Shown here piece after piece: positions 1-22,239 of a stretch of DNA of 64,000 nt. The stretch comes from Hericium rajendrae (lineage: Eukaryota > Basidiomycota > Agaricomycetes > Russulales > Hericiaceae), in contig CM065881.1 of NCBI GenBank assembly GCA_033439255.1, positions 372,001-436,000 on the forward strand. Reading direction: 5' to 3'. Below the pieces are notes generated by a model, which worked only from the letters and a program-made list of their open reading frames with translations, was not told the origin of the DNA and ran no database searches. Position 1 is the first letter of the stretch, and each line of letters starts with the position of its first letter. The translations under genes and the position numbers were made by a program.

Positions 1-283
1 ACGCCTCTCCGAGCGAGTGTCCAGCATTGACACCACACAAGGCCGCCATCAGGAGTCAGTGGAACAGCGACTCAAGGAGCATGAGGACCGTCTTCAAAAC
101 ATTGATAGGGGCCTCACCACACTATCCAGCAACCTGCACACCGACATCTCCGACATGTCCTCCAGGATGGCCTCCCGGTTCGAAGAGCTGCATGGCATGG
201 TCAACCACCTTATGCATATCATAGGATTAATCCAACCCATAAGTTGTAAGGGGTTATGGATCGATCCAACCCACAAGTTCTAA
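1..283 (+). CDS. Partial coiled-coil protein fragment cut by KDZ1
   Basis: An open frame enters from the left edge and runs to about position 225, where the KDZ1 terminal repeat begins; the last ~19 codons to the stop at 283 are translated transposon end. The peptide is hydrophilic with a heptad-like pattern (for example QRLKEHEDRLQNIDRGL, then MASRFEELHGMVNHL), so a coiled coil is likely. No upstream start is visible. It could be the 3' part of a host gene or of a retrotransposon gag. The sequence right of KDZ1 (33050-33300) is also open and could be the other half, but I cannot show continuity. No function is assigned. Confidence 0.4.
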   Translation, partial: RLSERVSSIDTTQGRHQESVEQRLKEHEDRLQNIDRGLTTLSSNLHTDISDMSSRMASRFEELHGMVNHLMHIIGLIQPISCKGLWIDPTHKF

Positions 284-790
284 GGCAGTTACCCACCCTA
301 CACAAATGTCATCCGATACATATACAGATGTATCCATTGTTCCAATCCCATTTAATCCAATCCAATCGGATCCACCATTCCGCATACACTATCAATCAGA
401 TGAGAATAGGACAGTCAAAATATAATAGATTAATCCAATCCAATCTGATACAATCTGACACTGTAATTATATACGAGATGCAATCTACTCGTCAATCAAT
501 CCAATCCGATCCTAAGTCATGATCTGATCCTACAAGCTCCCATATTATCTGTTAATCCGACTTGTGCGATTCAAACCAATCCGAACTCATACAAACGTAT
601 CCAATGGCGTCCGATCTCTACAATCCCATCCAATCCGATACCAGGCCCTCATTCAATCCAACCATCATCCCATCCGACTTCATCCCATCCGACTTCATCC
701 CATCCGACGTCATCGAATCCGACTTTATCGAATCCGACTTCATCGAATCCCATCCGATACTAACCAATATCATCCATCTATCATGACCAT
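225..790. repeat. KDZ1 left terminal inverted repeat
   Basis: This is the reverse complement of 32450-33032 with small indels. The outer part contains CCCATAAGTTGTAAGG and GGCAGTTACCCACCCT. The inner part is built from AATCC steps and, at about 655-760, a 15-bp tandem unit based on CATCCCATCCGACTT. Short repeats inside terminal repeats are typical transposase-binding arrays. The minus-strand transposase frame stays open into this array. Confidence 0.88.
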
Positions 791-3700
791 GATCAGTGAC
801 AGCTAACGGGCGATATTGTTCAAGCACAGGACATACATCAGGGAATTTAGCCTTTTTAAGTGCCCTTGCATGGAAAGTAGCTGCATCCTGGGCCAATCGC
901 TCGTACATCGACCTGTGCTTGTGGGCGTATGCTCCAGCACCACGTGTCATTGCCTCGGAGGCCAAGACCATCCAGGCCTTGCTCATTGTTGTGTGCGAAC
1001 GTCGTGTGTTTATGAATTCTTGATCAGTTATGTCAATTTCTTCTTGCCAGCGTTGGCAGTCTGCTCGATCGCGGAACCATTTGACACGTTCACCTAGTGC
1101 ATATCGCGTCAGTGTCAAGACAGGGAAGGATGAAAAAACATGAACTCGGCGTACTCTCCATGCTCCATTCGGCTTGTTCTTCCTCGGTCAGCGCTGATGG
1201 ACCAATTACTGTCCAGAACCAAGGATCCGGCTTCGCTGTATCACCTGGTTACAAAGTCAGGACAATGCAGCTTATGATCTAACATGTCACTTACCAATCT
1301 GCCGAGGTCGAGTGGTGTCTTTCATCCAAAGGTCCTCGTTGTGTAATGGCTGCAACACCACATCATCCTCGGCCAGACCCAAACTCACTAGCGCAGCACG
1401 AGCACGACGATATTTGTCAGCTGCGCTGACTTGATCACGTTTGAGGTCACGAAGGAATGCCTGAGCTCGCGTCGTTGGACCCTGGTTGAAGATGTTGGAT
1501 TTCTTGAATTTGAGGTTGTAATTGAACATCTTGATCGCATGCCGGACGTCGCGGAGGGCATCATGTGCTTGACCAACACGTAAGTTGTACTCCACCGACT
1601 CTGCATCGCCAAGACCTTGAGCCTTCCGAGTAGGTTCATTGAAAGACGACGGCAGCAATAACTTGATGTCTTCGGGCTCTTCATCATCGTTAACATTGAG
1701 AAACATACGAAGGCTGGAAAACATTGTGACTTGACGCTGCCGCCAACGGTCAAGCTCATTACGAAATTTGAGTCGGCCTACATCTAAACGCTCCTGTTCC
1801 GCAGGCGTGCGGACTTTGATGGATGCCAATACCTGCAGACGTGCTCTGCCAGATATCAGAACAAAAGAGTAGTGATATAAATCCTGCACTCACTGTTCTG
1901 CTTCAAGACGTAACCCATCATTGACCATCGCAACTACTCCCGCAGTCCCTTGGTCGCTGAGAGTGCGAACAGTCTCATCCTGGAGTAGTTCTTGAAGTTT
2001 CGAGAATTGCGTTGGTGGGCCTAAGTTGTCCATCAGGCCACTCGACAAAGATGAGCAAAAATGCAAGGAAGACATACCTTTCCTCGCCTTCGATGCATAA
2101 ACACTAGTCACTTTCCCATTGACAACTACTGGCTTGCAGTCCATGGCGGACCATTGGGAAACCAACGCCTGTCCATGTCATGCGCAGAGCGCCTCGAACG
2201 TAGTATTATTCCGATGAAACATTGCCGCTGCATTTGTGTGACGCTGATACAGGGACCGAGCTAAACTAATATGAGATATGGCATTCGTTCTTGGAAATAT
2301 CAGAACGTACTCATCGAGATAACCTTCTGCCAGTTCCAGTACCCATGGAAATCATCTAAGATGTCATGTCGATGACCTGCATTCATCTCCTTGGTGCTTC
2401 CCGCCGTCTGATTGCCTTCGGCCCATGCCGTTTCAATCGTCTCCCCAAACGTTCTGCCAACGTGGGAGGTTGTATTGAAAGAGAATTGTAATTGGCAGTC
2501 CTCAGTGTGGCCCATGATATGCAACTTCGGCACAAGTCCTTCGATCCGTGCGGCAATATCTTTCATCTCTGGAAAATGGGCATCTACACGCTTGAGGAGC
2601 TTGACTTTATACTGACAAAAGATGTCGTAGCTGAATTTGATGTAAGGAATTCTGCTAGACTCAATCAAGGCGGACATCAATGCATAGTCGGTGTTACAGA
2701 ATCTGGGGTGAGCGAACGTCAACAATGACAATACCGGGTCAACCAGGAGTAAGTCATACCTTTCACCTTTCTGCAAGTCAACCATGCCCTGAGGCCAAAA
2801 GAATCCATGCCGCGCACACTGAACACCGTCCACCCCACTCACAACTGTATGCTTGAACTTGAGAAGGTTTTGCAGACGGACGACATTCAGACGGGCACAT
2901 GTGGATCTCTGTTCGTATGTCAGCATTGATTGGAGGTATTATAATTAATGATAAGATGACCTCGTTGTCTGTTGCGATTCCCATTTTCTTGAGATATTCA
3001 TTATATGCTCGTGTCTCGACGAAATAAGCATTGCCTTGGAGTAGCTCCACATCGTCAGGGTCGTCGATTTTAACCTTCCGTTGAAGTCTGAAGTTGCCAT
3101 CGGCGGACAGAAATAAGGTATATCTATGCCTGGAATGGACAATTCAGCTCGTTTCACTCACATATGCATGTAGAACATTACGTACATGTCTTCAGGTGAG
3201 ATGTTTTCCAGTTCCTCCAGGGTCACATTGACACCGGGTTCGATGCATGCAGGACATCTTACTGCATAACATCCCTGTCGTCGCAATGTCAAAACCTTGT
3301 CGATGCCATGGGCTTGCCCTGAACGACGAATCATCGCCAGGGCGCGCCAAACACGCCCAACTCGCTGAAACTCTCGACGGCGATCCTAGTTATGCGGGTC
3401 AAAATTATAGAACTAAGTTGCTTGATTGAAATTACTCACAGGGGTGTTATTGGGAAACACATTGTCTGTGTGCCGTTGCAATGCGGCATAATGGTCGTAT
3501 GCAGATTTCTTGGAAGCTAGGGTGTGAAGATGGAAGTCATCGAGGACATGGAAGGTAAAAGCGGTCTGGGGTAGATCCATGGTTGCCGGAAAGAGGCCCT
3601 GACCCAATAGTTGAAGCGCTTCTGAGGTGGCATCATGGCAGCGGCAGAAGTCAACTTTGATATGATGAATGCCACCGACATCGACGACGACTAAATCGTG

Positions 3701-4300
3701 CCCTTGCGAAGTTGAGGCGCGATTCGGACAGCGACGGCCACGGTGCCCTAGGCCGACGATTAATCCTAGGTCCTTCAGCGAAGAGCGTTCGAAAAAAAGG
3801 CCATTCCATTTCTGGATTCGGTGGAAGGGAGAGTATTCATGACTAGATGTCATGCATGCTTGACAAGAGGGACGGCGCTGCCAGCAATCAACGCAGCGAT
3901 AAGTGGCTGGCGGTGCCTCCGGACTGCAGGTGCAGCGGTGTTCGACTGCGAGGTCAAATTCGCGACCAAGGATAGTATCTTGAATGGCGACCATGTTGTC
4001 GATAAAAGATTTCATGAAGGTGCTCGCGCCCTAAGGTAAATAAGTGAGCTGCGTCTTGAGGTAATTCACAATCAGACGTACCTGTGGTCATTTCGTTTCT
4101 TTGCACGCCTTTTCGGGCTCCGTCGTCACCAACGTTCTCCCCGCCGTCGTCGATGGAGGTTTCCGCTTCCTCGGAGAAATGACCTTATGAAAAGTTCTTT
4201 TGGCACCGTGATTACGACTGTAGTTCAAGCCAATCTCGATTTCGTTGTCTTCTTCCGAGTCGCTATCTACGCGGCCCGTGACGCGTGATCGTTTCAGCAT
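618..4300 (-). pseudogene. KDZ transposase with CxC2-like Cys cluster (KDZ1), broken
   Basis: A multi-exon gene starts at ATG 4300 (MLKRSRVTGRV). Exon 1 ends at 4082, exon 2 spans 4030-3440, exon 3 spans 3385-3186, and further exons run to about 800. Exon 2 carries a CxC2-like cluster (HRCTC, YRCVDC, CQAC) and ends in the usual linker (TAFTFHVLDDF). The transposase core follows: YAVRCPACIEPG, FLSADGNFRL, CARHGFFWPQGMVDLQKGE, SYDIFCQYK, VPKLHIMGHTEDCQ, TAWAEGNQTAGSTKEMN and RHDILDDFHGYWNW, then a coiled C-terminal part ending HRSMYERLAQDAATFHARA. The protein would bind and cut the element's ends in the nucleus. Two in-frame TGA codons (4088-4090 and 2178-2180) break it; both sit in an ATGAC context, as a C-to-T change of CGA would give. 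The frame then runs on into the terminal repeat to 618. The family is clear; activity is unlikely. Confidence 0.9.
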
Positions 4301-4685
4301 GACAAGGGAAATTGGAGTCTCAAACAGTAAGCTGGGAGGCAAGATAGTAGGGGCGTACAAGATGGAGAAGTGGCAAACAGAAACTGTCGGGGCAGTGGGG
4401 GAACATGTATATATCGCAAATAATAACATTACGAAAAGCGACTGTGGCCTACTCCGACTATTGTGGCTCGGCACGGCAAGACACGACACAACGTCCGATC
4501 CCCCGCGCATTGTTCGCCATGTGGCAAATCGTTGTGGACTCGCAGCCCCACATTGCATACCACAACACCGCGGCATGGCGGCGAAAAATAATTGCAGCAG
4601 GAAACAACGATTAAATAACAATAAAGAAAATAGTAAACTATAACACTTACTAGTCTCCTCTAAAAGCAACAGCGCAGGCTAATGA
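4301..4685. other. Gene-free stretch upstream of KDZ1 transposase
   Basis: This stretch lies between the transposase start and the 3' end of the SNF2-like fragment, both on the minus strand. It should hold the transposase promoter: a TATA-like TATATA sits at about 4408-4415, some 110 bp upstream of the ATG. Short frames here lack recognisable domains. I see nothing else. Confidence 0.4.
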
Positions 4686-5250
4686 ATATTGAAGGGTCAA
4701 AGAGAGTACACGAACAGTTCTTTGCTCTGGTCGAAGTCCATCGTATCGCTTTGCAGCCTTCACGTCGAGAGCATGTTCAGAACCTGTCGCCTTGTCCATG
4801 GATACCGGTGCCGACTCTTCCTTCATAAAGTCATCAGCGACGATAGGCTCGAGACCGCCATCGCCAAGGGTGGAGGCGAGAGCTTCGAGTTCGTCAATGC
4901 GCTACTGGATGCGAGCCTCTACAAAGCGATTGCGCTCAGCGAGGGCTTGATGTGGATCAAGGCCAGCCGGCGTAATGGAGGGTATGAATAAGCGCTGCAA
5001 ATGACTAGCAAAAACGGAGGGGTTCGAGCCTGCAACACGCTTGATGTAGGTGAAGGGATCCGCGTAGGAGTTCACAGGAAAGCCAGCTGAGTCAACATCC
5101 TCCTCTGATAGAGATGGTTTCGGCACTTCGTCGTTCTGGCTCATGTCTTCAGTCTTCAATGCGGCGCCCTCGACGGAGCAGGGGTGGGCGAAGAAGTGGA
5201 TGCGAGGGGGATAGGTGGTGCATCGCTTGGTCCTTTTTGCACCTGACATT
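4686..5250 (-). pseudogene. Captured SNF2/STH1-type remodeller N-terminal fragment
   Basis: The minus-strand frame reads SYADPFTYIKRVAGSNPSVF, then LQRLFIPSITPAGLDPHQAL, AERNRFVEARIQ, a stop, and RIDELEALASTLGDGGLEP. This resembles the N-terminal region of fungal SNF2/STH1 ATPase subunits (QLQ/HSA area), where an ERNRyieARI-type segment is followed by RI.ELE.LP; I recall this from family knowledge and could not align it. The ATPase domain is absent. The fragment lies directly downstream of the RFC1 fragment in the same orientation, with the junction near 5250 and no intact gene around either piece. I read it as part of a captured chimeric unit inside KDZ1. The SNF2 assignment is weaker than the RFC1 one. 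Confidence 0.5.
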
Positions 5251-6230
5251 ACGATAGCGCGGAAGACATTCATGCCATTTTTGCCTGGTCTCTTGAAGCC
5301 AGACTTGAGACTACTGGACCTAGAATGACGAAGCTCAGTTTACAATGGTCTGCTTGCAAAAATAAATCAACAAACCAGTCATGCAACCACGTCTGTAGCT
5401 TTTCGACCTGCCCCTGTTTCCCACATATCTCCTTCAAGGTCTGCGGTTCGTATTTGTCTGTCCAGAGCTGAGCCGAACGATCAACGGCCTTCCTACTAGC
5501 ATGATAAAAAAATTGACTCCACGCAATATACTGAGCTCAACGACGTACCTTCCAGGTTTGCCAGAGCCTGCTTTCGCAGCTTCGGTCTTCTCGTGTTTCT
5601 CCATTTCCTTAGCGCCGTCTCGGATTGCCTGCATCTCCTTCTCCATCTTCTTCTTGGTCTTTGCATCCAGGCCTTCTCCACTTCTGGGACCTTTCCGCAT
5701 AGCGATCAGCTCCAAGAACTCGTCCTTAGACAATGTGGCAAGGTTCTGCTTCTTGATCGCAGCGAGCTTCGCAGGGCCTGTGCCCTCTGCGAGCACAACG
5801 AATGATGTCTTGGATGACGGCTGGCCCGAGACACGACTGAAACCCCATCAGCCGTCTCGAACGACTAATAAAAAACACATAATCACATACCCACCAAATC
5901 GCTTCGCGAGATCGACAGCCTCCTCGCGAGAGAAACTCGAAAGCTTGCCTGGAAAACCGAATGCAAGCCCTGCTAGACAGTCTGGATCAGCTGGATCAGC
6001 ATTTTCCGGGACTGTTTTGGAACCAGGTGCGCTGGGCCCCGCCGCCTTCGCTGCCCTTGCCGCAGCCCAACTACAGCATATGGGCATTGATAAGTAGACT
6101 GAATCATCGGAAGCACGGCTTGCACCTACTTGAATTCCTTGGCCTCCTCGTGCACCTCCTCAGCATCATCCTTTGCAACGAACTTGGCCTTAGGTTCCGA
6201 GAGCAGCCAAAGCGATGTGAGTAATAGACT
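5251..6230 (-). pseudogene. Captured RFC1 fragment (BRCT domain to start of AAA+)
   Basis: Minus-strand exons keep plausible introns. One exon ends in EEVHEEAKEFK near 6127; the next (about 5892-6076) reads AARAAKAAGPSAPGSK and then GKLSSFSREEAVDLAKRFGG; the exon at 5549-5836 reads SRVSGQPSSKTSFVVLAE, GPAKLAAIKKQNLATLSKDE and FLELIAMRKG; then come LWTDKYEPQTLKEICGKQGQ (5383-5497) and KSGFKRPGKNGMNVFRAIVM (5251-5324). This is the order seen in replication factor C subunit 1: BRCT domain, linker, first strand of the AAA+ domain. The Walker A motif that should follow is missing because the sequence switches to the SNF2-like fragment. RFC1 is the large subunit of the clamp loader for PCNA. The piece cannot work as RFC1; it is a transduplicated fragment with its introns, so capture was at the DNA level. 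Upstream is a repeated leader cassette shared with the gene at 22570. Confidence 0.78.
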
Positions 6231-6257
6231 TATGACCAAACGGTCGTAGCACGCGTT

Positions 6258-6690
6258 CCGTACGATATGCGCCCGGGAGTAAGGGATTGTGCCAATCAAT
6301 GGGCCCTCACGGCGGACAAACGTTGTCTGACCACGAAGGTTGTCCACAGAAGTGACAGAGAATCGAGTCCGCGGCACGGGAGAGGGAATACGACAGTACA
6401 AGCAAAAGACCGAAGTAAGGTAAAATAAAAAAAAGTGTCTATCCCCTTGATGGCGCACAGCAAGTCATGCTCACGAAGACCCGAAAGGGTTGGAGCGACA
6501 GGTGAGCTGTGCACCAGGGAATCAACACAGGAAGAAGGAAAAAAAAGACGGCCGAGATGCGCCCGGGAGTGAGGGATTGTGCCAATCGATGGGCCCTCAC
6601 GGCGGACAAACGTTGTCTGACCACGAGGGTTGTCCACCGAAGTGACAAAGAGTCGAGTCCGGGGGATGGAGGAGGTGGAGAGTGAGGCCT
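6258..6690 (-). repeat. Repeated leader/promoter cassette, one full and one partial copy
   Basis: On the minus strand a block from 6690 to about 6390 holds GACTCGACTCTTTGTCACTT, TTGGCACAATCCCTCACTCC, GGGCGCATCTCGGCCGTC and a T-rich end. A partial copy follows at 6368-6258. The full block recurs on the plus strand at about 22240-22540, just upstream of the gene starting at 22570. Its position ahead of two transcription units pointing away from each other suggests a duplicated promoter and 5' leader. The gypsy element now separates the two copies. Confidence 0.7.
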
Positions 6691-7592
6691 ACAGCAGAGA
6701 TTGAGCGAGAATGCCTAAGGAGATGGACTTACCTGTGAACGCTGATGCGCCCTTTAGCGCGCCTTGCAACGGCATTGCCCACTCCCCGCCTCCTCGCCCG
6801 TCCCGCTTCACTTCACCTCAGCCGCACCAAGTCCGCCCACCGCGACGTCGCTCCCCGCACAGGACAAGCGCCCCCACGGGTTCGGGACCGACCGGGTCGG
6901 ACTAAAGCCGGTGTCCCGTGGTCCGATGCACCGAACGGGCCGGAGATCAACCGGCCGGACGAGTCAGCGGCACAGGAACAGAAGTGCGCCCAGCGAACCA
7001 GCCGGCTCAATCAACGCGCCCTCGAACGCCCACACGCCCCCGGATCACGGGCGGCGCCCGCGACAGTGCGCTACTGACGTCATCCCAGCCATTCCAGCTC
7101 GACGCGCCCGCCGTTCCCGACGCACGCCCGGGCGACGTTGTAAGGCGGCACCTTTGATTCGTCCGTACCACGCGCACGCCCTCTGCCCTGCACGGGCCGA
7201 GCCGCAACGACTCCACTCACCAAGGGACCCGGAGCAGGCAGGATCAGGAAGGAATTGGAGATTGGGTCGGTCAGCGGGAGGTTGTCGTAGGGAGTCGCGC
7301 CGGGCCGCCAGAGGCGGCCTTGCCCATTTGTACCGTAGCTACTGACTTAGAGAATCAGAAGGGAATCGGCCTTTTTCCCCTCAGGGCTCAGATCTCACAA
7401 AGCCCGCCGTTTGACGTTCTCACCCCAGCCTCTAAGCCCGTCTCAGACGTAGCTCTTCTCACTTCCTCGTGTCGCTCATCGTATTCGTCGTACTCGTCGC
7501 CGCGCCGTTATCTACAAGCCGTATCACCTAAGACCCGTGAGTCTTGCCGTATCGTCATCGTCCCTAGCAGAGCCGCGTCGGAAGTCGCCCGC

Positions 7593-7744
7593 TGGAGTGG
7601 CCCAAGGGCAGGAGCTAAGCCCAGGGATGATGATAGCAGGATGCCGACTACATACAGGAGGCAGACTCTATCTAAGGCAATGCTGACTAAGCCTCGGCAT
7701 CCTCCGAACCTCTGGATGCAGGGAGCCTCCGGCTCCCTAGTCCA
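7593..7744 (-). repeat. Copy 1 LTR (3' LTR in element orientation)
   Basis: 152-bp repeat matching 10484-10635. In minus orientation it runs TGGACTAGGGAGCC to GGCCACTCCA and is preceded by the purine tract GAGGGGGGCACC. Confidence 0.88.
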
Positions 7745-7790
7745 GGTGCCCCCCTCGAAAAAAGCGACGTCCGCGTCGCTGGTGAACAAC

Positions 7791-10187
7791 CTAAGAAGCT
7801 GAACCATGGACCCAACCCAAACCTCGAAGGACTCGACCCAGCTCCTGGAGACGAGGGTCACCCTGCCAGTCCAAGGGTGGGACCTCAAGCTTGACCGGAT
7901 GCGAAATCGATGGTGAGGATGACACAACGACTGATGGTCGATCCGCGCGAAGACCAGCGGGATGTCGACGTGTGACAATGGGCTTCGAATTTAGAGTTAA
8001 TGGCCGAGGTGGGCGTGAAAGATGAGCGGGCCGCGTCTGAGAACGCCGTGCACGTCGCTTGAGGGAATCGAACGGCCTGTGTGATGAGGAACGAAGTATT
8101 GAAAAGTCACGCGGGGTGTATGACGAAACTAGGACAGAGTCGCGTATGGGGAGGGAAGAGGCATCATCAGCCCACGAAAATGTTGCCGTACCAATATGTG
8201 ACATTAAAGGGATATGAGATGGGGTTGTGAGCGAGTCATGTGGCATATTGACATTGCCAGTGGCATTTGAAATGAATGTACATTGTTGAAGGTCGGTAGG
8301 ATTCGGGGTGGATGGGACAGTGACCGGCGAAGAATTCATGTTGCAATGAGCTGTGGTCGGGAATTGAGAATGACAAGTTGACGTGCGGCGGCGCACAACA
8401 GCGACTGCTGCCGTTTGGGAGGCAGAGTCGACACGGGTAGGCAGTGGGCCATAGTCCGTCTGAACGACGGCGACGGCGTGCGGAATTCGGCTCACCTCGA
8501 GTCGATGTTGCTCGCGTCCTTCGTTAATTCCACTCTGCTTCCCCTCTCGATAACCGTCCTCATGACCCTCCTTTGTCCCCGACTTCCATCCTGCTTCCAT
8601 ACCGTCCAGGAAACCGACCTGTTTCCCTTTCTTCAACCCAGCAGCCTCGCCCCTCGCGATCGCTTTCGCGAGGATGTCGGTGAGGAGACCGGGTTCGATC
8701 TCCTGCACGATCCTGGCATGGGCGGGCGCAGAGGAGTGCGGCGTGTCGGTCTGTGTGCTGGCTTGGACACGCGGTCGCGTGGTATAAGTCTTGTTGGGCG
8801 GGGTAGATGGACGTCCGCAGGCGTCGGATTGCACGCCGGTGTGGACGCGCGGGCTCGGAGTGTCGTGAATGCGAGTGGGAGGAGCTGGGGCATCCGCCTG
8901 GATGCCAGCGTCGATGCGCGGGATCGCGGGGTTGACGCGCGAGGTCGTGGTGCATGCGTAGATAGGCGGGGAGAGCGCCAAGACGTGGTCGTCGGTCTGG
9001 ACGTGAGCATTGGCGTGCGGGGTTGCGGGGAGCGTGTCGAGGGGAATGGGCGGTGGTGAGTGGGTACGCGAAGGAAACGGGAGCGGCGGGGCGCCGAATT
9101 GCACGCCGGAGTCGACGTGCGAAGGAGCGGTGAATGTGTCGGGGGGTGGGATGGGGCTGTCGGCCTGGACAGCGGCGTCGGCGCGGGGGTTCACGGAGAT
9201 CGTGTCGATAGGAGGGGGATACGGAGGTGCAGCGACGTCTGCCTGGACGGTAGCGTCGATGCGAGAGTGCGTACTCACCTCGGTACGCGCTGCCTCGAGC
9301 CCTTCGCGGTACCCGTCCCATCTCCCCAGCTCGTACGCGTCCCTCCGCGCCTGCTCCTGCTGGAGCATGTCGGCCCTCGCGTCCCTCCTCGCTTCCCTCC
9401 TTGCTGCCCTCTGGCCTTCCTCTAATCCCTCCTTCCAGCCTCGCTCTCGGCCTTCCGCCAGAGCCTTCACTCTGATCTCCCGCCGCGCTTCTATTCGCGT
9501 CGCATTCTGCGCGTCCTCGATGATATTCTCGAGGAGCTCCTCGTCGATCTCCTCGATCGATGTGGCGAGGCGTGTGCGTGGTGCGAGCGTTTCGGGTTCG
9601 TGACTATCCTCATTCGCGCGATCGAAGAAGTGCGCGGGGCACGCGAAGAAGACGGTCGGGGGGCCTGCGCGATCGACAGCAGTCGCGAGATCCGCGGCTG
9701 CGTGGATGGATAACGCGGGGAATGGGGCGCGTAGTGCGCGGAGCGTGTCGGCGTGGTTGCTGATATGCGGTTGCTGTGGGGAGTTGGCGGATACGCCGCT
9801 CGACGTGCTGGATGGCGTGGTCAACGCGGGTGGTGAGTCCTCGGGCTCGGGACGCGGGTCAGACGCGTGGCGCTCGTGCGTTTGTGGCGTTGCTATGGCA
9901 ACGGGCTCCCTTGCATGTGCATCGACGATGGCTGGCTCGCGAACGAGCGTGGTGTCGATGGTGGGATACGCGGGGGTTGCTGCACGAGGCGCGCGAGTCG
10001 CGTCTGCCTCGCGGCTAACGCGCGGTTGCGGTGCTGCTTTCGCGAGGGTTTCCTCAGCGTCGCATGCGGTTGTCGTATCGACTGGAGCGGCGTGTGCGTC
10101 GAGTGGAACGGCGGGGCTCGGGGAAACAGCTGAGGCTGCTGCTGCTGTTGCTGCAGCTCGGCGCGCGGCTGAGCGCTTCTTGCCCAT
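7791..10187 (-). CDS. EG-repeat protein of non-autonomous LTR element, ~798 aa
   Basis: The ATG at 10187 is chosen because the related protein at 40550-42703 starts at the matching MGKKR[ST]AARRAAA. The upstream open frame has no in-frame ATG that I can see. The protein is rich in Ala, Pro, Ser and Thr. Ordered blocks shared with the second copy are: basic start; PP[TN][VI]FF; SIEEIDEELLENIIEDA; runs of G-x3-(E)G steps (EGRERGWKEGLEEGQ and GRWDGYREGLEAAR, later EGHEDGYREGKQSGINEG); FSWADDASSLPI; then LDWQGDPRLQELGRVLRGLG near the C-terminus. Its position between LTRs suggests a Gag-like structural role, but there is no zinc knuckle and no known Gag domain that I recognise. Function unknown; long, intact and conserved between two diverged elements. 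Confidence 0.75.
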   Translation of the reverse strand: MGKKRSAARRAAATAAAASAVSPSPAVPLDAHAAPVDTTTACDAEETLAKAAPQPRVSREADATRAPRAATPAYPTIDTTLVREPAIVDAHAREPVAIATPQTHERHASDPRPEPEDSPPALTTPSSTSSGVSANSPQQPHISNHADTLRALRAPFPALSIHAAADLATAVDRAGPPTVFFACPAHFFDRANEDSHEPETLAPRTRLATSIEEIDEELLENIIEDAQNATRIEARREIRVKALAEGRERGWKEGLEEGQRAARREARRDARADMLQQEQARRDAYELGRWDGYREGLEAARTEVSTHSRIDATVQADVAAPPYPPPIDTISVNPRADAAVQADSPIPPPDTFTAPSHVDSGVQFGAPPLPFPSRTHSPPPIPLDTLPATPHANAHVQTDDHVLALSPPIYACTTTSRVNPAIPRIDAGIQADAPAPPTRIHDTPSPRVHTGVQSDACGRPSTPPNKTYTTRPRVQASTQTDTPHSSAPAHARIVQEIEPGLLTDILAKAIARGEAAGLKKGKQVGFLDGMEAGWKSGTKEGHEDGYREGKQSGINEGREQHRLEVSRIPHAVAVVQTDYGPLPTRVDSASQTAAVAVVRRRTSTCHSQFPTTAHCNMNSSPVTVPSTPNPTDLQQCTFISNATGNVNMPHDSLTTPSHIPLMSHIGTATFSWADDASSLPIRDSVLVSSYTPRDFSILRSSSHRPFDSLKRRARRSQTRPAHLSRPPRPLTLNSKPIVTRRHPAGLRADRPSVVVSSSPSISHPVKLEVPPLDWQGDPRLQELGRVLRGLGWVHGSAS

Positions 10188-10483
10188 ATCGGGTAATCGC
10201 GCGAATGGTGTTGAACGCGGGTGCGAGTGTTGAACTGCGAGCACGGGGGACACTTGATGATGGCCTAGGACACGAGAGACACGGGACGAACACGAGAGAC
10301 ACGGGGTAGAACGGGAGTGTGTGAGAACACGAGAAACGAGCACAACACGGGGCGCGAGAACGGGACACGAGGCGCGCGAGAGAGACAATGAAAATGATGC
10401 GAAAAGGCCAGAAAAAAGCCAGAAAAGCAGAAGTGACTCAACCCAAAGCTGAAGTGGGTCGAATCATACTCTCATCACCAAGA

Positions 10484-10635
10484 TGGAGTGGCCCAAGGGC
10501 AGGAGCTAAGCCCAGGGATGATGATAGCAGGATGCCGACTACATACAGGAGGCAGACTCTATCTAAGGCAATGCTGACTAAGCCTCGGCATCCTCCGAAC
10601 CTCTGGATGCAGGGAGCCTCCGGCTCCCTAGTCCA
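10484..10635 (-). repeat. Copy 1 LTR (5' LTR in element orientation)
   Basis: 152-bp repeat matching 7593-7744. In minus orientation it is followed by TCT and then TGGTGATGAGAG, a primer-binding-like start. Confidence 0.88.
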
Positions 10636-10812
10636 CCGCGCGCAGCAAGCTCGCCTCCCGCGGCCTTGCTCCCCTACCCGTAGTACGATCACCCGTCAGC
10701 TACACGTCTCGGCGCTCCCCTCTTGAGATACTTGGTCCCCTCGCACCCCCCGGTACTCTGTTGGTTTTGGTTTTGGCTGCCGCCTCCATTCCCAGGGTCC
10801 ACACATCATTTT

Positions 10813-10835
10813 TGGAGCCCACCGCGAGGGTTCCA
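10813..10835 (+). promoter_or_regulatory. Gypsy primer-binding site (candidate)
   Basis: TGGAGCCCACCGCGAGGG begins 4 nt after the 5' LTR, and TGG is the complement of the CCA end of a tRNA. The tRNA species is not determined. Confidence 0.6.
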
Positions 10836-11140
10836 TACTCAAAATAGAGCCGCGTCGTACTAGGAGTAGCGCACGGTCGAATCCAGATCGTACCCTCGAA
10901 CAAGAAGTCCGTGTTGCGACTCAGGACCCTCAGCAAGTTTCCCCCGACCTACCGTCACCTTTCCCACCAGTTCCAACTCCCACTAGTCCCCTTACTCCCA
11001 TCGACGAAGAGTTCGAAATTCCCGAGCTCGGGCGTTCCTTCATCGTTCCTACTCCACCCGTATCGCCGACCCCGGCGCCGCGACCCCTTGCCGGTCCCTC
11101 TGCTACCGCGGGTCCTAGGACAACGCCGCACCAGGCGACT

Positions 11141-13742
11141 TTGCCTGCTACCCCCGTCCCCTTCTGCTACTCAACAACACAGCCCGCTAGCCCCTGCACG
11201 TTTCCCCTTCCCCAGGCCACAAAGTATCCAACCAGTCATGCCGCCCCCTCCATGCCTATGCGCGGCGAGAGCGGTGCTCCCAAGTTCGACACCAACTCCC
11301 CCGCGAGCTGGGCCGTTACTTCCTCGATCTCGAATTTTGTTTTCAGCGTTCCTCTGTGGTAGATGACGCGGAGAAAAAGAGTCATGCGGTCCGTCTCCTT
11401 TCAGACGTTGACGCACAAGAGCTATGGCGGTCCGAGGCCAAGTACGCCGCCGGCACTTGGGACGAATTCAAGAAAGCTATCCACGAACTCTACCCGGGCT
11501 CGGCTAAGGAGAATACCTTTTCGCGTCAAGATTTGGAGTCACTCGTGCACCGAACTGCCGAGTCCACCCTCAGTTCCGTCGGCGAACTTGGTGCGTTCTC
11601 GCGCGAGTTCACGGTCATCACGCGTTACCTGAAAGGCAAGAACCGCATCTCCGATATCGAGGAACAACGCTGGTTTTTGGCGGCGCTCCCCGAACGTCTT
11701 CGCCTGCGGGTAGAGGACCGCCTTGCTCTTACCAAGCCTGATCACCATCCCGACGATCCGCACCCGATCAACGACGTCTATAGGGCCGCAGAGTGGTGCA
11801 TGTATGGCACTGCCATCACCCCCGACCCGTACCTGCGTGGACCGTCGTCAACTCAAGCCACCGCGTCGTCATCAACCGCCGATGCAGGCTCAGGAACGAC
11901 TATCCAGATTAAGAGTGAGCAGTTAGCGTCACTAGCCGATATCCTCTTGAGGAGCGCGCAGCAGCCGTCGCGTCAACCGATGGTCTCCGGAGGTAATCAA
12001 GGCGCGCCAATGCGCGGGCGAATGGGGTCGGATCAGTGCAACTTCTGTGGGAACGTGGGGCATTTCGTGCGCGAATGCATGACAGCCCGGGAATACATGG
12101 CCGCGGGCAAGTGCAAGAAGGACGTCCAAGGCAAGATGGTCTTACCCTCTGGGGCTTGGCTCCCGCAAGGACCCCCAGACGCGACTATGGCCGAACGGAT
12201 CGACGAATACCACCGTATGAACCCCAATCAGCGAGCCACGGGTCAGCTTATGATGGGTGTAGCCGGTACCCACCAGGCAAGTTCGCCGCGGGCGGGGCTC
12301 CTCCCTACGGCTATCGCGTCGCGCCGGCATACGCTCAGACCGCCGCGTCCCCCTATACCCAGGTCCAGGCAGGGTTGTACCAGCTCACCACAGACGCGCG
12401 GATCGAGAGCCTGGAGGGCGAGCTACGGCGGTTATACCAGTTGAAGGACGCCTCGGTCGTGCCCCCACCCAATGCCGCGGCCAGCCGTGATAGAGCTAAC
12501 CGGGCGTTGGAACGAGCTCGCAGGATGGAAGAGCCTGCCCGCCAACCAGCCCCTCCACGATTGCCCCGTGCGCCGCCGCGCCCGACCATCGAGGACGAAC
12601 CAGAGCCGCCGCGGGCGTCCCTGCCCCCTCCGCAAGCTTCACCGGCCCCAGGCCCGGAACGAGACGTCCCCCCCCACCTTCTATCTCAACCTGCGGTACG
12701 CGACGACCTCCGCGACCCTGATGGTCCTGTCCACCCCTTTGCCAGAGCCCGCGACGGTGCAAGGCCCGCGCAAGTCCCAGTGATCGAAGTAGTCGAAGAG
12801 ACGGGCCCAACCCGCCGTGCGCAAGACTCAGTCGGGCAAGACGTGCTGGACCGCGTGTTCGCGCGCGCCATGTCCCTCCCTATCGAGGTCACCCAGGGCG
12901 AGCTTTGGTCCCTGGCGCCTGCACTACGCGCGAAATACAAGGAGGCAGTCTCACGGCGTCACACGCGTCCGATGGCGGGACAGAACCTGTTGGAAGTCCT
13001 TAACGAGACTGACCTGCTCTCCGAGCTGCCGGGCGAAGATGCAGTCGAGGAGCTGGCCTTGCCAGCGCGTCAAGTAGAGCTCGCTGCAGGTATCCAGTTC
13101 GCGAGCGAGCCCGCCGAAGGCGACCGTGTGCAGCACCCGGCCTCGCCCCCTCATCCACGGGTATCTATCCTTTCGCACCAGTGCGCCGAGCCGCCGGACG
13201 GTGCTGTCGTCCTCCCGGATCCCTACGAGCAGTACCTCAAGCAACTCCGCCCGGACGAAAAGCCTAAGCCCCTGATCGTCTCGCGCGAGTCTGCGGCGCT
13301 GCGCTCTATTGCAGCACTCATAGATCATCAAGAACCGGTCGAGTGCATCTTGGACCCAGGTTCTCAGGTCATCTCCATGTCAGAGAGCGTTTGCTACACC
13401 TTAGGCCTGTCGTATGACCCCACGATTATCCTCACTATGCAATCCGCCAACGGCGAACTTGATGACTCGCTGGGCCTGTGCCGAAACGTGCCTGCAGTCT
13501 TCGGCAACATTGTTCTCTACCTCCAAATACACGTCCTCCGGTCGCCCGCCTACGATATCCTACTCGGACGCCCCTTCGATGTGCTTACCGAGTCCGTCGT
13601 GCGCAGCTACCGCAATGAAACACAGACCATCACCATCTTCGACCCAAACACCGGCGAAGCAGCCACGATCCCCACCCACCCGCGCACTGACATTCAGTAT
13701 ACGCTCGCGGCAAAGGAGGATTTTCGCGCTTCGATGATTTGA
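11141..13742 (+). pseudogene. Gypsy gag and aspartic protease region, frame-broken
   Basis: The reading frame changes near 11300 (in a C run) and again near 12280. Before the first break is MRGESGAPKFDTN; after it the Gag core runs LGRYFLDLEFCFQ..., SDIEEQRWFLAALPERLRLR, and a CCHC zinc knuckle CNFCGNVGHFVREC at about 12039-12080 that would bind genomic RNA. After the second break a Pro-rich linker leads to a retropepsin-like domain: ECILDPGSQVISMS, where the usual DTG/DSG is DPGS as in related agaricomycete elements, then MQSANGELDDSLGLCRNVP and YDILLGRPFDV. The stop is at 13740-13742. The breaks could be mutations or sequence errors in homopolymers; the start of gag is uncertain. Confidence 0.8.
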
Positions 13743-13772
13743 TCGACGATCAAGGAGAGGTCGCCTTCATCG

Positions 13773-16700
13773 TTGATTTCGACTCGGAGACGCCGCAAAT
13801 CACGGCTTATGCCGCTATACCCCCAGAATGTTCCGAAAACCCAGACAAACGCCAAGATCATCTTCAATCTCTTTATCTCTATGCCTGTGATGCCTCGCTT
13901 CTCGACTCTAGTCCGGGGGTCCTTCGCTTTCGGACGCCCCGATAAATCTAATTTGTTGTCTGCCTTTCTCTCCGCTACAGCCTGCAAGTCCGCTTCCGCT
14001 TCCAAGCAAGGTCGCCCGAGTCCGCCGCCTCCTGGCGCGACGGATACCGGTCCTCCTGTCGCCTCTTACACCGCAAAGAAATACAAGCCAGTTGCCCAAA
14101 AAGTCCGCCCAGTATTTACGGACCTCCCCGAGCGTTTTCGGGTTCTCCGTAACATCAAAGGCGACCCTCTCCAAGACCTGCCGGAGTTATCTCCCAATCC
14201 GCCCCCGTTCGCTCCCACCGCCCGCTATACCGAAGAAAGAAAAGCGGTTATCGATCGCGCCCATCCTGAAGGTTTCCTCTGGCCCTCCGAGCGCGACCTA
14301 CTCCACCATTTCATGTGTCTCCACGATACCGCCTTCGCCTGGGACGATTCAGAGCGGGGACATTTCCGCGAAGACTTCTTCCCCTCAGTGGTTATGCCGG
14401 TGATACCGCACACCCCCTGGGTCTTGAAGAACCGTCCAATCCCGCCAGGCATCCACGACAAGGTCTGCGAGATTATCCGTACCAAAATCGCCGCCGGCGT
14501 ATATGAGCCTTCGTCGTCGTCATATCGCTCACGCTGGTTCTGCGTCACCAAAAAGGATGGTACAAGCCTGCGCATTGTGCACAGTCTCGAACCACTCAAC
14601 AAGGTCACCATCGCTCACTCGGGCGTCCCGCCTTTTACCGACCAGCTCGCCGAGCAGTTCGCCGGGCGTGCTTGCGGCGGCATCCTCGATCTCTACGTTG
14701 GTTACGACGAGCGACTCTTGGCGGAGGAGTCCCACGACATGACCACGTTCCAAACCCCGTTCGGGCCCAAACGGCTCGTTACGCTGCCCATGGGGTGGAC
14801 GAACTCCGTGCCTATCTTCCACGACGACGTTACCGAAATCCTCCGGCCAGAAATCCCAGCTGTCACCATGCCCTATATCGATGATGTCCCCATTAAAGGC
14901 CCAGCTACCCGTTACGAGCTGCCCGGCGGAAATTTTGAAACTATACCCTGGAACCCAGGTATTCGTCGCTTTGTCTGGGAACACTTCCAGGGCGCGAACC
15001 GTGTCGTCCAACGCATGAAATATTGCGGTGGTACCTTCTCAGGGAAAAAGACTGTCCTTTGCACGCCGGAAATCATCGTCGTCGGCCATAGATGCACGCC
15101 GGCGGGCCGTTTGCCAGAACTCAGCAACCTCGCCAAGGTCAGCAACTGGCAACCTTGTACCGACCTCTCGGACGTTCGCGCTTTCCTCGGGACCATTGGC
15201 GTGGCCCGCATCTTCATCAAGAACTTTGCAAAACGTGCTCACCATCTGGTTCGGCTTACGCGCAAGGACACCCCATTCGAGTTTGGCCCAGACCAGTTGG
15301 CTGCGCAGGAAGACCTTAAGCAAGCGCTACTCGCATCACCCGCCCTGCGCGCGATAGATTACGAGTCTCCCGCCTCAGTGATCCTGGGCGTCGACACCTC
15401 CTATATTGCCATTGGTTACCTACTCTGTCAACAGGATGTGGACGACCCCAAAGTTCGCCGGTATGCCCGCTTCGGCTCTATCGCCCTGAACGACCGTGAG
15501 GCGCGCTTCTCTCAACCGAAGCTGGAATTATATGGCCTATACCGGAGCCTTCGCGCACTCAAACTCTGGCTCATTGGCGTTCGCAACCTGATTATCGAAG
15601 TCGACGCCCGTTATATATCCGGCATGCTGAATAATCCCGATCTCGCCCCTAGTGCGTCCATGAACCGGTGGATCGTCGGCATCCTCATGTTTCAATTTAC
15701 CCTGGTCCACGTCCCTGGCGAGAAGCATGGGCCGGATGGCCTCTCCCGGCGCCGCCCCCAGGACGATGATGCGCCCGAACCCGACGACGACTTCGACGAC
15801 TGGGTCGACCGTGCTTATGGCTTTGTACACATAATAAATGTACCCCGGATCGGCCACGACCGCCCTCAGCTGGCCCAACAGCTCATCTCGACCAATGTCG
15901 CCGCCGGCGATTTTGTCGCGCCTCCTCCGCAAGACCACTTGGCGTCCTACGCAGACGTTCCAAGGTCCGAAAAATCCCTCCTCACGGATGCCCGACTGCG
16001 CGCCGTCACCGACTTCCTGCTCCACCCGATCCGCCCTGACGGATTGACGGACCGGGAGTACGCTCGCTTCCTGCGTTATTGCCGCGACTTCTTCATGAAA
16101 GGTGGCCGCCTCTGGAAGCGCGACAAGACAAATGCGCACAAACTAGTGCTCCCGCCGACCGGCCGCTGGGCTGCTCTCGTTGAGACTCACGAGTCCGCGG
16201 GACACCGTGGCGTCGCCGCAACCGCCCTCCTGCTCGCGGTCCGTTTCTGGTGGCCTTTTATGGGCTCGGATGTCGCTTGGTTCGTCCGTTCGTGCCATAT
16301 TTGCCAAGCGTTCCAGATCCGCAAAGTTCTTATCCCGCCAACGGTTGCGGTGCCCGCGCCTTTATTTGCGAAAATGTACATGGATACCATGCACCTGCCG
16401 AAATCCAACAATATGCAATACCTGGTCCAAGGGCGCTGCTCTGTGTCCCACTTTCCCGAATGGCGCATGCTGCGCAAAGAATGCAGCGAGCACATTGCTG
16501 ATTGGATTTACCAAGACATCTTGTGCCGCTGGGGTATGCTCACCGAAATCGTGTCCGACAACGGCGGCCCGTTCGTTAAAGCCTTGACGCAGCTGGAAAA
16601 GAAGTACCACGTCCGGCATATCCGCATCTCGGGCTATAACTCGAGAGCCAACGGCATCGCTGAGCGTGCACACTTTGACGTACGCCAAGCCCTGATCAAG

Positions 16701-17420
16701 GCCGCCGACGGCGTGGAGAAGAATTGGAGCTACTCAGCCCACTCCGTGTTCTGGTCGGAACGTATCACCATCCGCCGGCGCATGGGCTGTTCCCCATACT
16801 TCGCGGTAACCGGTACGCACCCCCTGATGCCGCTCGATATCGCTGAAGCCACCTACCTGCTACCGCCGCCCGAGGCGATCTTGTCCTCTACCGACCTGAT
16901 CGCCTCCCGCGCTCTTGCCCTGCAGAAGCGTCAAAAGGACCTTCAGCGACTTCACAGCCGCGTCTACGAGGCCCGCCTCCAGGCAGCACGAAAATTCGAA
17001 CTGGAACATGCACGCACGATCCGCGACTTTGACTTTCGCCGCGGCGAACTGGTACTTGTCCGCAATTCCGCGTACAGCACCAGCCATTCCCGGAAGACCA
17101 AACCGCGCTACCTAGGCCCGTACCTCGTCCTCGGCCGCAACAAGGGGCGTGCTTACCTCTTGTGTGAGCTCGACGGTACGTTATTCGACCGGCCCACCGC
17201 AGCCTACCGCGTTGTCCCGTATTTCGCCCGTACCATCCTCGATCACCCGCCATTGGAGGATTTCCTCGATGTCGGCATCGAGCAGTTTGAACGTTTACTC
17301 GCCTCCACCGTCACAGACCCGGATGACGAAACCGCCGGCAGCGACCTCGGCGAATTCGACAGGTCCCGACCAAGTTCGCCCGCGGCGTCCTCTGACCACT
17401 CGACTAGCGAGGAGGACTGA
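13773..17420 (+). CDS. Gypsy pol: reverse transcriptase, RNase H, integrase
   Basis: An open frame of up to 1215 codons; the true start is probably downstream of about 13945, since conserved sequence begins near AKKYKPVAQKVRPVFTDLPE. Reverse transcriptase motifs include WFCVTKKDG, FGPKRLVTLPMGW and the YIDDV catalytic loop. An RNase H-like domain follows (ILGVDTSYIAIGYLL), then the tether HVPGEKHGPDGLSRR. The integrase has an HHCC finger (HESAGHRG ... CHICQ), a DDE core (YMDTMH, VSDNGGPF, NGIAERAH) and a chromo-like tail region (VLVRNSAYSTS, KPRYLGPYLVLGR). Together these copy the RNA into DNA and insert it. No internal stop is seen, so this part looks competent. Confidence 0.92.
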   Translation: MISTRRRRKSRLMPLYPQNVPKTQTNAKIIFNLFISMPVMPRFSTLVRGSFAFGRPDKSNLLSAFLSATACKSASASKQGRPSPPPPGATDTGPPVASYTAKKYKPVAQKVRPVFTDLPERFRVLRNIKGDPLQDLPELSPNPPPFAPTARYTEERKAVIDRAHPEGFLWPSERDLLHHFMCLHDTAFAWDDSERGHFREDFFPSVVMPVIPHTPWVLKNRPIPPGIHDKVCEIIRTKIAAGVYEPSSSSYRSRWFCVTKKDGTSLRIVHSLEPLNKVTIAHSGVPPFTDQLAEQFAGRACGGILDLYVGYDERLLAEESHDMTTFQTPFGPKRLVTLPMGWTNSVPIFHDDVTEILRPEIPAVTMPYIDDVPIKGPATRYELPGGNFETIPWNPGIRRFVWEHFQGANRVVQRMKYCGGTFSGKKTVLCTPEIIVVGHRCTPAGRLPELSNLAKVSNWQPCTDLSDVRAFLGTIGVARIFIKNFAKRAHHLVRLTRKDTPFEFGPDQLAAQEDLKQALLASPALRAIDYESPASVILGVDTSYIAIGYLLCQQDVDDPKVRRYARFGSIALNDREARFSQPKLELYGLYRSLRALKLWLIGVRNLIIEVDARYISGMLNNPDLAPSASMNRWIVGILMFQFTLVHVPGEKHGPDGLSRRRPQDDDAPEPDDDFDDWVDRAYGFVHIINVPRIGHDRPQLAQQLISTNVAAGDFVAPPPQDHLASYADVPRSEKSLLTDARLRAVTDFLLHPIRPDGLTDREYARFLRYCRDFFMKGGRLWKRDKTNAHKLVLPPTGRWAALVETHESAGHRGVAATALLLAVRFWWPFMGSDVAWFVRSCHICQAFQIRKVLIPPTVAVPAPLFAKMYMDTMHLPKSNNMQYLVQGRCSVSHFPEWRMLRKECSEHIADWIYQDILCRWGMLTEIVSDNGGPFVKALTQLEKKYHVRHIRISGYNSRANGIAERAHFDVRQALIKAADGVEKNWSYSAHSVFWSERITIRRRMGCSPYFAVTGTHPLMPLDIAEATYLLPPPEAILSSTDLIASRALALQKRQKDLQRLHSRVYEARLQAARKFELEHARTIRDFDFRRGELVLVRNSAYSTSHSRKTKPRYLGPYLVLGRNKGRAYLLCELDGTLFDRPTAAYRVVPYFARTILDHPPLEDFLDVGIEQFERLLASTVTDPDDETAGSDLGEFDRSRPSSPAASSDHSTSEED

Positions 17421-17431
17421 GGGCAGTCCAT

Positions 17432-17448
17432 TTTTCAGTTAGGGGGAG
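17432..17448 (+). repeat. Internal copy of the polypurine tract
   Basis: TTTTCAGTTAGGGGGAG lies 11 nt after the pol stop and recurs exactly at 20898-20914, directly before the 3' LTR. The two copies flank the antisense gene module. Confidence 0.85.
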
Positions 17449-17876
17449 TAGAGGCCGTCAGTCAAGCGTGTCGACGACCTTGGACGCCCCACCAATACCC
17501 ACACGCACGAAATAAATCTATTGTTACTTGCATTTCGACAAACTCGCCTTGGGCGATCTTCATACCATCCACCACTCAGATTTTACCTTCACCAATCGTA
17601 TAGGCCCTGACAAGATCGCCTGGGGCGACTTTGTTTCTTTCTGGTTTTCCCCTTTAGATTCACACAGGTTCAGACTTCAAGATGGGCTCCCATTCGGCAG
17701 GAGCAACGATACAGTAGGACTCGGCGTCCCGATTACGAGCGACCTATAGTAAAAAGCCGGGCCTAAGGCCCGGGCAACACAAAACGTATGCGACAACTTC
17801 CACGACGACAAAACAAGATAGCAAATTTAAAAGGGGAGGGTCTTTCCCTCCCCGCGCAAAGCGACAGCCCCGCTCG
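17449..17876. other. Non-coding stretch with perfect hairpin
   Basis: No convincing gene between the internal polypurine tract and the end of the antisense gene. At 17757-17773 CCGGGCCT and AGGCCCGG form a perfect 8-bp stem with a 1-nt loop, about 105 bp past the stop of the antisense gene; it may mark its 3' end. Confidence 0.5.
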
Positions 17877-19833: not shown

Positions 19834-19966
19834 TTCAGCCGCGTCTCGCGAACAGGAAGCCTATTCGGCGACGGGCAAGTCCCACAGACAGCATAGTGCG
19901 CCTTGGCACCAGAATAGTTCAATTGAGCGGCGAGGCATGCTCGCCACCAGCGTACATCGTACTATA

Positions 19967-20719
19967 CTAATCCGCGGCCCCTCCCGCGACCCTGTCGCGG
20001 GCGCCCTCCTCGTCTGCTCGGTAGGGCGGAAGCCGCAGCAGCTCGGCCAAGTCGAGTGCCTCCGCCACTAGGCGGTGCATCGTCTCTAGCTCATGCGGAT
20101 CCTCGCTCACCTCTCCCCCGGCGTCTTCCCACGGCAACTCCGGCGCGGAGACCGCTTGATGCAGCCTGGCGAACAACGGCTCCAGAGCCCGCTTGCAGGC
20201 CTCCGCGTCTATGACGTCATACTGGTACTTGCGGCAGGTGATATCGATTTCCTCCAGGGCCACCGCGCGGCGCGTCTCCCACAGCTCGGACTCGGCCACG
20301 GACAGGCGGTCCGCGGCATCTACCTGATGGTGCTCCAGGGAATCGAGCCACTCGCGCTTCAGCGACGGCATGAGGTACCAACCCCAGTCGAGCCAACGGC
20401 GGACTTTCCCGGACGCGCGGGCGGCCTCGGACAGGAAGTGGTCCGACATCTGCGTGATGTCATCCTGCAGACCCACGTCGATGGCGCCAGCGTAGCGCTG
20501 GTAGTCCTTCTGGAGTCCCGAGAATTAGCAGGTACGCAACAACACCGCAAGCGAGCTTGGACGTACTACGGCGACCATGAGGTCTCGACCCCAGATCTCG
20601 CGTTCCCGGATGACCGCGTCGCGCTTGAACAGCGTGGACGCATCGAGCGGGGTCCACGAGCGCTCCGCAAGGAGCCAGGTCACTTTCTGGTGGAAGACTT
20701 GATCAAGGAAGGTGTTCAT
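19967..20719 (-). CDS. Antisense accessory gene A of gypsy element
   Basis: Two exons on the minus strand. Exon 1 starts at ATG 20719 (MNTFLDQVFHQKVTWLLAER) and ends after IWGRDLMVAV near 20565; the intron has a GTACGT donor, a CTAAT branch site and CAG acceptor; exon 2 continues KDYQRYAGAIDVGLQDDI and ends at the stop at 19967-19969. A TATA box lies 63-72 bp upstream of the ATG. The protein (about 230 aa) is helical, acidic at the C-terminus, with Trp-rich segments (VRRWLDWGWYLMPSLKREW). I recognise no family. It sits in a head-to-tail pair with gene B, both opposite to gag-pol. Confidence 0.62.
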
Positions 20720-20781
20720 CGGGACAAGACTGCCGGACGCGAAGATGGCTCGGAGTTGAGTGCCCTCCCGGGGCGTAGATG

Positions 20782-20791
20782 CCTTTTATAG
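20782..20791 (-). promoter_or_regulatory. TATA box of antisense genes
   Basis: On the minus strand CTATAAAAGG lies 63-72 bp upstream of the ATG at 20719, a usual distance for a fungal TATA promoter. It would drive leftward transcription from inside the element. Confidence 0.6.
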
Positions 20792-20897
20792 GCTCGCTGC
20801 AGCACACCCGCCCAGGGCGCCGTCGCACAATCGGCTTCACGCATGCCCGCGCCCGAATCCCTCGTGGGGCTCCAGATTAGACTACGGAGAGTCTAAA

Positions 20898-20914
20898 TTT
20901 TCAGTTAGGGGGAG
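20898..20914 (+). promoter_or_regulatory. Gypsy polypurine tract
   Basis: TCAGTTAGGGGGAG followed by AA lies directly before the 3' LTR start at 20917, where plus-strand DNA synthesis would be primed. An exact copy is at 17432. Confidence 0.8.
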
Positions 20915-20916
20915 AA

Positions 20917-21936: not shown

Positions 21937-22027
21937 ACGCAAATCGGTCTTGGAGATGAGACGTTGAGGCGAGACTGGGCAGGGATGGATGGAGGAGATC
22001 GCCTACCCTAACCCCAACAAGTCAGTC

Positions 22028-22105: not shown

Positions 22106-22239
22106 GCTCTTCCACTTCGACATGCCACGTCGTCTTCACCTCCGTTACACACTGGAGTCAGCAAAACCGTTTACAAAGTAAGTTCATCCGTCTCTCGTGC
22201 CCTTGGCAGCTTAACTTTGATTTCAGATTGTCTTCATCT

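Follow-up and report, generated by a model that had tools for sequence, protein, structure and literature searches.

Probable serial transduplication of host RFC1 and SNF2/STH1 sequence by a Kyakuja-like KDZ transposon in Hericium rajendrae

Results

The window element

The window analysed here is a stretch of 64,000 nucleotides (G000:C4:372001-436000) from a genome of 46.8 Mb in 19 contigs. It contains a complete KDZ element with nested insertions at positions 206..33051, referred to below as the C4 copy. The element has CA..TG termini and is flanked by a 7-bp target duplication, GGTCAAC, at 199-205 and 33052-33058. The left end is 5'-CACCTTATGC and the right end, inverted, is CAGGGACGTC. Inverted repeats of several hundred bp begin at about 222 and 33035, and pair positions 222..774 (plus strand) with 32462..33035 (minus strand). 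The outermost stretches of the two ends differ.

A transposase gene of several exons occupies 780..4300 on the minus strand (outer limits approximate; start codon at about 4300, by eye). Pfam searches matched the KDZ domain (PF18758, E 3.9e-43) in ORF 2303-2938 and the CxC2 cluster (PF18803, E 1.8e-37) in ORF 3416-4030. Having both a KDZ transposase domain and a CxC cysteine cluster, the element belongs to the KDZ superfamily. On the plus strand, gene C covers 22644..26607 (limits approximate, by eye). None of the four ORFs tested within it gave a Pfam match; similar DNA is present in relatives of the element on contigs C2 and C17.

Two insertions are nested in the element. An LTR retrotransposon, 6743..21936, with LTRs of about 1020 bp, lies between two copies of a leader cassette described below. 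Its LTRs differ by 7 mismatches over 1024 aligned positions, and the 5' LTR is itself split by a 3-kb insertion (~7593-10635) that has 152-bp direct repeats at its ends. The second insertion spans ~27212-30242. Within it sits ORF 27835-29073 (minus strand), which, like ORF 47155-48393 (plus strand), has exactly 412 codons; these are perhaps two copies of one small element. A short ORF at 30213-30410 (plus strand) looks HMG-box-like by eye, has no Pfam match, and may belong to a second gene of the element on that strand.

The leader cassette, 6205..6735 on the minus strand, stands ahead of RFC1 sequence and includes two tandem 123-bp repeats (6553-6675 and 6263-6385). An inverted copy, 22238..22546 on the plus strand, faces gene C; the stretches 6430-6686 and 22238-22494 are 95% complementary. 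The two leader copies likewise face apart in the relatives on C2 and C17, where RFC1 is absent. Since the leader is also present in these RFC1-free relatives, it belongs to the element. Acquisition of the leader along with RFC1 was rejected on the same grounds. An earlier note on this DNA, made from sequence alone, had described a duplicated leader that is inverted in front of gene C. The duplication stands, but the leader is the element's own cassette and not part of the capture.

Host gene sequence in the element

On the minus strand, the order is leader, RFC1 (6200-5245), SNF2/STH1 (5248-4790), RFC1 again (4789-4681) and the transposase gene. The first RFC1 piece, 5245..6200, comprises five exons and four introns. 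It includes the BRCT domain and extends to just before the Walker A motif. In a PDB sequence search the exons matched RFC1 chains with E 2.7e-32. Spliced alignment with the native RFC1 gene on contig C6 gave 208 identical residues among 245 aligned codons, in which there were no stops, no frameshifts and one three-codon insertion. The introns (6129-6071, 5890-5837, 5548-5496 and 5375-5320, minus strand) are 53-59 bp long with GT..AG ends. Hence, the earlier identification of RFC1 exons from the BRCT domain to the first AAA+ strand, with intact introns, was borne out. The piece ends ...VFRAIVMSG, where native RFC1 continues into Walker A, also as the earlier note had said.

The SNF2/STH1 piece, 4790..5248 on the minus strand, is 459 bp long and 94% identical to C1:3790461-3790921, which lies inside one long ORF (genome DNA search). 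The parent gene, at 3.79 Mb on contig C1, encodes QLQ, HSA, SNF2, SnAC and bromodomain regions, and is the only gene of the genome with a SnAC match. The copied part corresponds to the linker between QLQ and HSA and contains no Pfam domain. The piece carries a CAG to TAG stop at 4904-4902 and a 1-bp deletion, both common to all three copies of it (C4, C14 and C3). Within the SNF2 piece of C14 (~C14:1139287) lies an additional partial tandem copy, about 200 bp long. The suggestion that a SNF2/STH1 segment follows RFC1 is thus upheld by the match to C1, but the segment is part of one exon rather than several exons. A PDB sequence search alone gave only a weak match to BRG1 (E 0.003), ranked just under an unrelated peptide-binding protein (E 0.0021), and on that result the SNF2 assignment might be ascribed to chance similarity or annotation error. 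The DNA identity to the C1 gene over the full 459 bp refutes this reading, which we consider vanishingly improbable.

The second RFC1 piece, 4681..4789 on the minus strand, derives from the RFC1 exon that contains QVLNMLSTW and is 93% identical to C6:2720842-2720950. It had been overlooked in the earlier description of the cargo as RFC1 followed by SNF2 alone. Its divergence from the native gene is no more than conserved coding sequence would predict, and does not itself date the capture.

A chimera-like protein was sought among 5.8 billion proteins, in a search able to detect sequences of 0.55-1.75 times the query length that share short exact words with it. Among the 41 protein matches, none was an RFC1-SNF2 fusion of the chimera's size, and query coverage was at most 69%.

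Copies across the genome

DNA and protein searches of the genome located RFC1 at six loci: the native full gene on C6 and elements on C3, C4, C7, C10 and C14. Both parental genes, for which the earlier note had proposed a search, are intact, RFC1 at C6:2.72 Mb and SNF2/STH1 at C1:3.79 Mb. The RFC1 C-terminal domain (PF08519) was found at C6, C7 and C10 only (all six candidates scored). Thus, C7 and C10 hold a longer form of captured RFC1; it runs from before the BRCT domain through the stop codon and slightly beyond. The 5' junction between leader and RFC1 is at the identical place in all five elements, which lie on five contigs. Replacement of the RFC1 middle by SNF2 sequence is common to C4, C14 and C3, and absent from C7 and C10. 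At the RFC1-SNF2 junction, C3 has 21 extra bases. Their absence from C4 and C14 is what a deletion joining two AGG triplets would produce.

Exact 7-bp target duplications flank four of the five RFC1-bearing elements (C4, with GGTCAAC, and C10, C3 and C14, among which the others are TGTTGCC, CGAAGCG and CGTACAT); no matching 7-bp duplication was found for the C7 element. All five have CA..TG termini with CAGGGACGTC and CACCTTATGC ends. Over the outer ~28 bases one end is unlike the other (CAGGGACGTC or CACCTTATGC), and in the window element the two are swapped relative to C3, C7, C10 and C14. Because four of the five elements have matching target duplications, the cargo has moved with the element.

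These observations bear on the possibility that an ordinary host RFC1 or SNF2 gene was disrupted in place by transposons. Apart from the nearness of transposase and host exons, nothing was found in favour of such an event. The parents are intact elsewhere, and the same arrangement recurs in several elements with target duplications. In-place disruption, which the earlier note had named as a test of its proposal, is refuted by the intact parents and the further copies with their shared junction; we regard it as extremely unlikely. The central proposal of that note, capture of host gene pieces by a KDZ element through transduplication, is supported by the intact parents and the five elements.

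Near-complete matches to the transposase query occurred at ten loci (C14 in two pieces), with further partial matches on C2, C5 and C9. RFC1 is present in five of the ten; the five without it lie on C2 (two), C17 (two) and C6 (one, at 1.24 Mb). Absence of RFC1 was established by aligning the site for the two C2 elements, and from the distances between leader and transposase matches for the others. In both C2 elements, C2a and C2b, leader and transposase are present with no RFC1 between them.

KDZ sequences are abundant in this genome, with at least 172 matched stretches (150 of 223 candidates scored; one element can yield two stretches). TET/JBP matches number 46, of which 38 exceed the cut-off, and several lie within a few kb of a KDZ match. 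None of the 46 (52 of 52 candidates scored for PF12851) falls in the window element, C4:372206-405051. Outside the element, a TET/JBP match at 39893-40282 and a KDZ match at 45494-45877, both on the plus strand and about 5 kb apart, probably mark a second, TET-bearing KDZ element. The RFC1-bearing element of C14 (C14:1133005-1198608) measures 65.6 kb between its matching 7-bp duplications. Inside it, at C14:1165-1168 kb, a TET/JBP and a KDZ match suggest another nested KDZ element.

Divergence and order of events

The RFC1 most similar to the native C6 gene is that of Hericium alpestre (90% identity across the whole draft query). The native gene differs from the window copy by dS 0.28 and dN 0.069. 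A 16-row protein tree united the cargo RFC1s of all five elements in one clade (89/86), placed beside the native RFC1 of this genome and that of H. alpestre (86/79), with Dentipellis outside. This placement gives moderate support to a capture close to, or earlier than, the divergence from H. alpestre. A tree of 13 rows, without the short copies, left the position of C7 and C10 relative to the two native genes as an open fork.

The arrangement of the copies indicates that the SNF2 step came second, after RFC1 capture, because the SNF2 piece sits within RFC1 and because C7 and C10 hold RFC1 without SNF2. The distances agree with this order. Thus, the RFC1 copy is at dS 0.28 from the native gene, and the SNF2 piece of the window differs from its parent at 26 of 459 positions (in whole codons, 11 replacement and 14 silent differences). 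The C3 copy differs from native SNF2 at 35 of 459 positions, and from the window copy at 23 of 458.

Divergence between copies was uneven along the element. Between C7/C10 and C4/C14/C3, RFC1 was 13-17% different in clean windows, the leader 7-12% different and the transposase 7-8% different (dS 0.14-0.21). The first four RFC1 introns were 21-23% different between C4/C14 and C7/C10, and each group was 22-23% different from native (C3 not counted). Between C4 and C3, the RFC1 piece was mostly 5-8% different, rising to 14% at its 5' end, and the leader 11-16% different, more than between the C4 and C10 leaders. The cargo of C3 groups with C4/C14; its transposase is by dS nearer C7/C10, and was unplaced in the transposase tree. 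Hence, exchange between copies, or with native genes, is also needed, and the history is not a clean tree.

Such patterns raise the question of whether the two RFC1 versions stem from two separate captures, or from a single capture with later conversion involving native RFC1 of different lineages. The first four introns would fit, since they separate the two groups as far as they separate either from native, and further than leader or transposase do. Divergence of C7 and C10 from native is also uneven: introns 5-15 are 12-13% different (C6:2719490-2722597) and introns 1-4 are 22-23% different, possibly through conversion. Conversely, the 5' junction is shared by all five copies, and 22 sites set the five together apart from native; some of these could have changed on the native branch. 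A sliding comparison of C7 and C10 with native RFC1 revealed no single breakpoint. We hold such a double or converted origin to be possible but unlikely; the matter concerns only the initial capture.

Selection and coding state

Replacement and silent changes were compared with a neutral yardstick, a shuffle matched for base and CpG context; the fractions below are shuffles with replacement counts as low. Branch counts used codons aligned in all six copies, sorted into named pattern classes, with two three-state sites set aside and ancestral states taken from the native C6 gene alone. Between C4 and C3, which diverged after the SNF2 step, there were 49 replacement and 19 silent changes (49.0 replacement expected). 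C4 and C14 differed by 12 changes, 6 replacement and 6 silent (7.4 replacement expected; 581/2000). Private changes looked neutral in C4/C14 (17 replacement to 4 silent), C3 (26:8) and C7 (13:3); those of C10 were 6:7 (8.6 replacement expected; 550/5000). After the SNF2 step, then, the sequence changed as a neutral one would.

Deeper branches gave other values. On the C7/C10 stem there were 8 replacement and 19 silent changes (17.8 replacement expected; 0/5000). The 22 sites at which all five copies agree against native comprise 5 replacement and 17 silent changes (15.4 replacement expected; 0/5000), a class that includes the native branch. Comparison of C7 with C10 beyond residue 247 gave 43 replacement changes against 56.1 expected (1/2000, and 8/2000 in the other direction). 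The longer copies therefore seem to record some earlier constraint, which could reflect a period of function in the element or conversion by native RFC1.

Captured RFC1 might once have been a working gene of the transposon, with the leader as promoter, an ATG at the junction and coding capacity from BRCT to the C-terminus, that decayed later. It would perhaps have aided repair after excision, and the SNF2 form would be a dead derivative; so stated, this reading is compatible with serial transduplication. Besides the constraint on C7 and C10, it can draw on the in-frame ATG of C3, four codons ahead of the first RFC1 codon, and on C4 and C14, which have no RFC1 stop or frameshift in 245 aligned codons. 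Nevertheless, all five copies are now damaged or truncated. C7 and C10 share a stop at residue 83 and have frameshifts, C3 has a stop and a frameshift, and C4 and C14 lack Walker A. No in-frame ATG was found upstream of RFC1 in C4, C14, C7 or C10, with an unspliced leader considered. Constraint is not clear on the C4/C14/C3 stem (9 replacement and 8 silent; 11.5 replacement expected; 709/5000) or between C7 and C10 at residues 6-247 (26 replacement against 28.4 expected; 451/2000). Furthermore, conversion by native RFC1 leaves an identical mark, and the C7/C10 stem is post-capture only if the junction was inherited without later exchange. On balance, we think a formerly working gene improbable.

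Discussion

The locus is very probably the product of serial transduplication by a KDZ (Kyakuja-like) DNA transposon, acting stepwise and at the DNA level. Host gene sequence lies between the element ends, intact parents exist elsewhere and the cargo has been mobilised, as transduplication entails. Because the introns were kept and the parents are intact, DNA was copied; a retrocopy was rejected, since the introns are present. In the first step, host RFC1 would have been copied with its introns, from before the BRCT domain through the stop codon, to a site between the transposase gene and one of the two divergent leaders, directly behind the latter. In the second step, in one lineage, about 700 bp of the RFC1 copy (from Walker A to within the QVLNMLSTW exon) would have been replaced by 459 bp from one SNF2/STH1 exon, and the remaining RFC1 lost. 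In the third, elements bearing the cargo transposed, as the target duplications show.

Both captures may have occurred when a break inside the element was mended in patchwork fashion, the repair switching template to unlinked genes. By eye, the capture junctions are blunt or nearly so, with little or no microhomology, and the RFC1-SNF2 joint of C3 contains about 11 bases of filler. With so little junction microhomology, the repair mechanism is an inference.

Most likely, the chimera as it now stands is a passenger. Any transcript of it started from the leader would not be expected to yield a working clamp-loader or remodeller protein. In a more specific and quite doubtful scenario, RFC1 received the transposon's own leader and a junction start codon and was for some time maintained as a working gene by selection, possibly aiding repair-dependent spread of the element; decay and the SNF2/STH1 patch followed. 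Should the longer copies truly have been constrained, they would exemplify a replication protein gene carried by a transposon.

What is mostly visible of host gene capture by DNA transposons is its end product. In the present case, one genome holds RFC1-free relatives, elements with longer RFC1 and elements with the SNF2 replacement, so that the order of steps can be read. Transduplication is thereby extended to the KDZ group, which is abundant in this genome and which the literature describes as a carrier of TET/JBP genes.

Kyakuja elements of Agaricomycetes are the closest comparison. According to the available text of PMC12730594, two Laccaria families have 7-bp target duplications, CA..TG ends and no TIRs; TET-positive Kyakuja are reported from Russulales, and members carry an acquired TET/JBP gene. 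The window element resembles the Kyakuja described there in its KDZ transposase, 7-bp duplications and CA..TG ends. Unlike those Laccaria families, it has long subterminal inverted repeats. Unlike the TET-bearing members described in the same source, it lacks any TET/JBP match and holds parts of two host genes, the parents of which persist in the genome. We call the element Kyakuja-like only, because inverted repeats begin at about 222 and 33035.

Pack elements usually lack a transposase gene. In contrast, the present element family still has its transposase gene, and a longer version of the capture persists alongside the rearranged one. For Pack-TIR elements, gap filling or template switching has been proposed, and most have microhomology, commonly short, at a breakpoint, in the portions of PMC8277862 available. 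Like those Pack-TIR and Pack-MULE elements, the present family holds gene pieces between transposon ends, and gap filling with template switching would fit it; unlike the Pack-TIR elements of that text, it has hardly any visible junction microhomology.

Among fungi, hAT elements with captured histone H3 are described in the accessible parts of PMC6710886 (Pseudocercospora) and PMC3538342 (Pyrenophora). There too, a DNA transposon copies and multiplies a housekeeping gene while the original stays. On those accounts, the hAT elements belong to another superfamily, have captured a single identified host gene instead of two successively, and reach hundreds or tens of copies rather than five. Captured genes in a mushroom transposon are also known from Helitrons of Pleurotus ostreatus, which, unlike the window element, are rolling-circle elements as presented in the text at hand of PMC4289320. 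Among the matches listed in the open-access literature, none concerned KDZ capture of a host gene other than TET/JBP. Thus, the kind of event is known from these systems; what is new is the group of transposons involved, the succession of two captures and the survival of the longer form.
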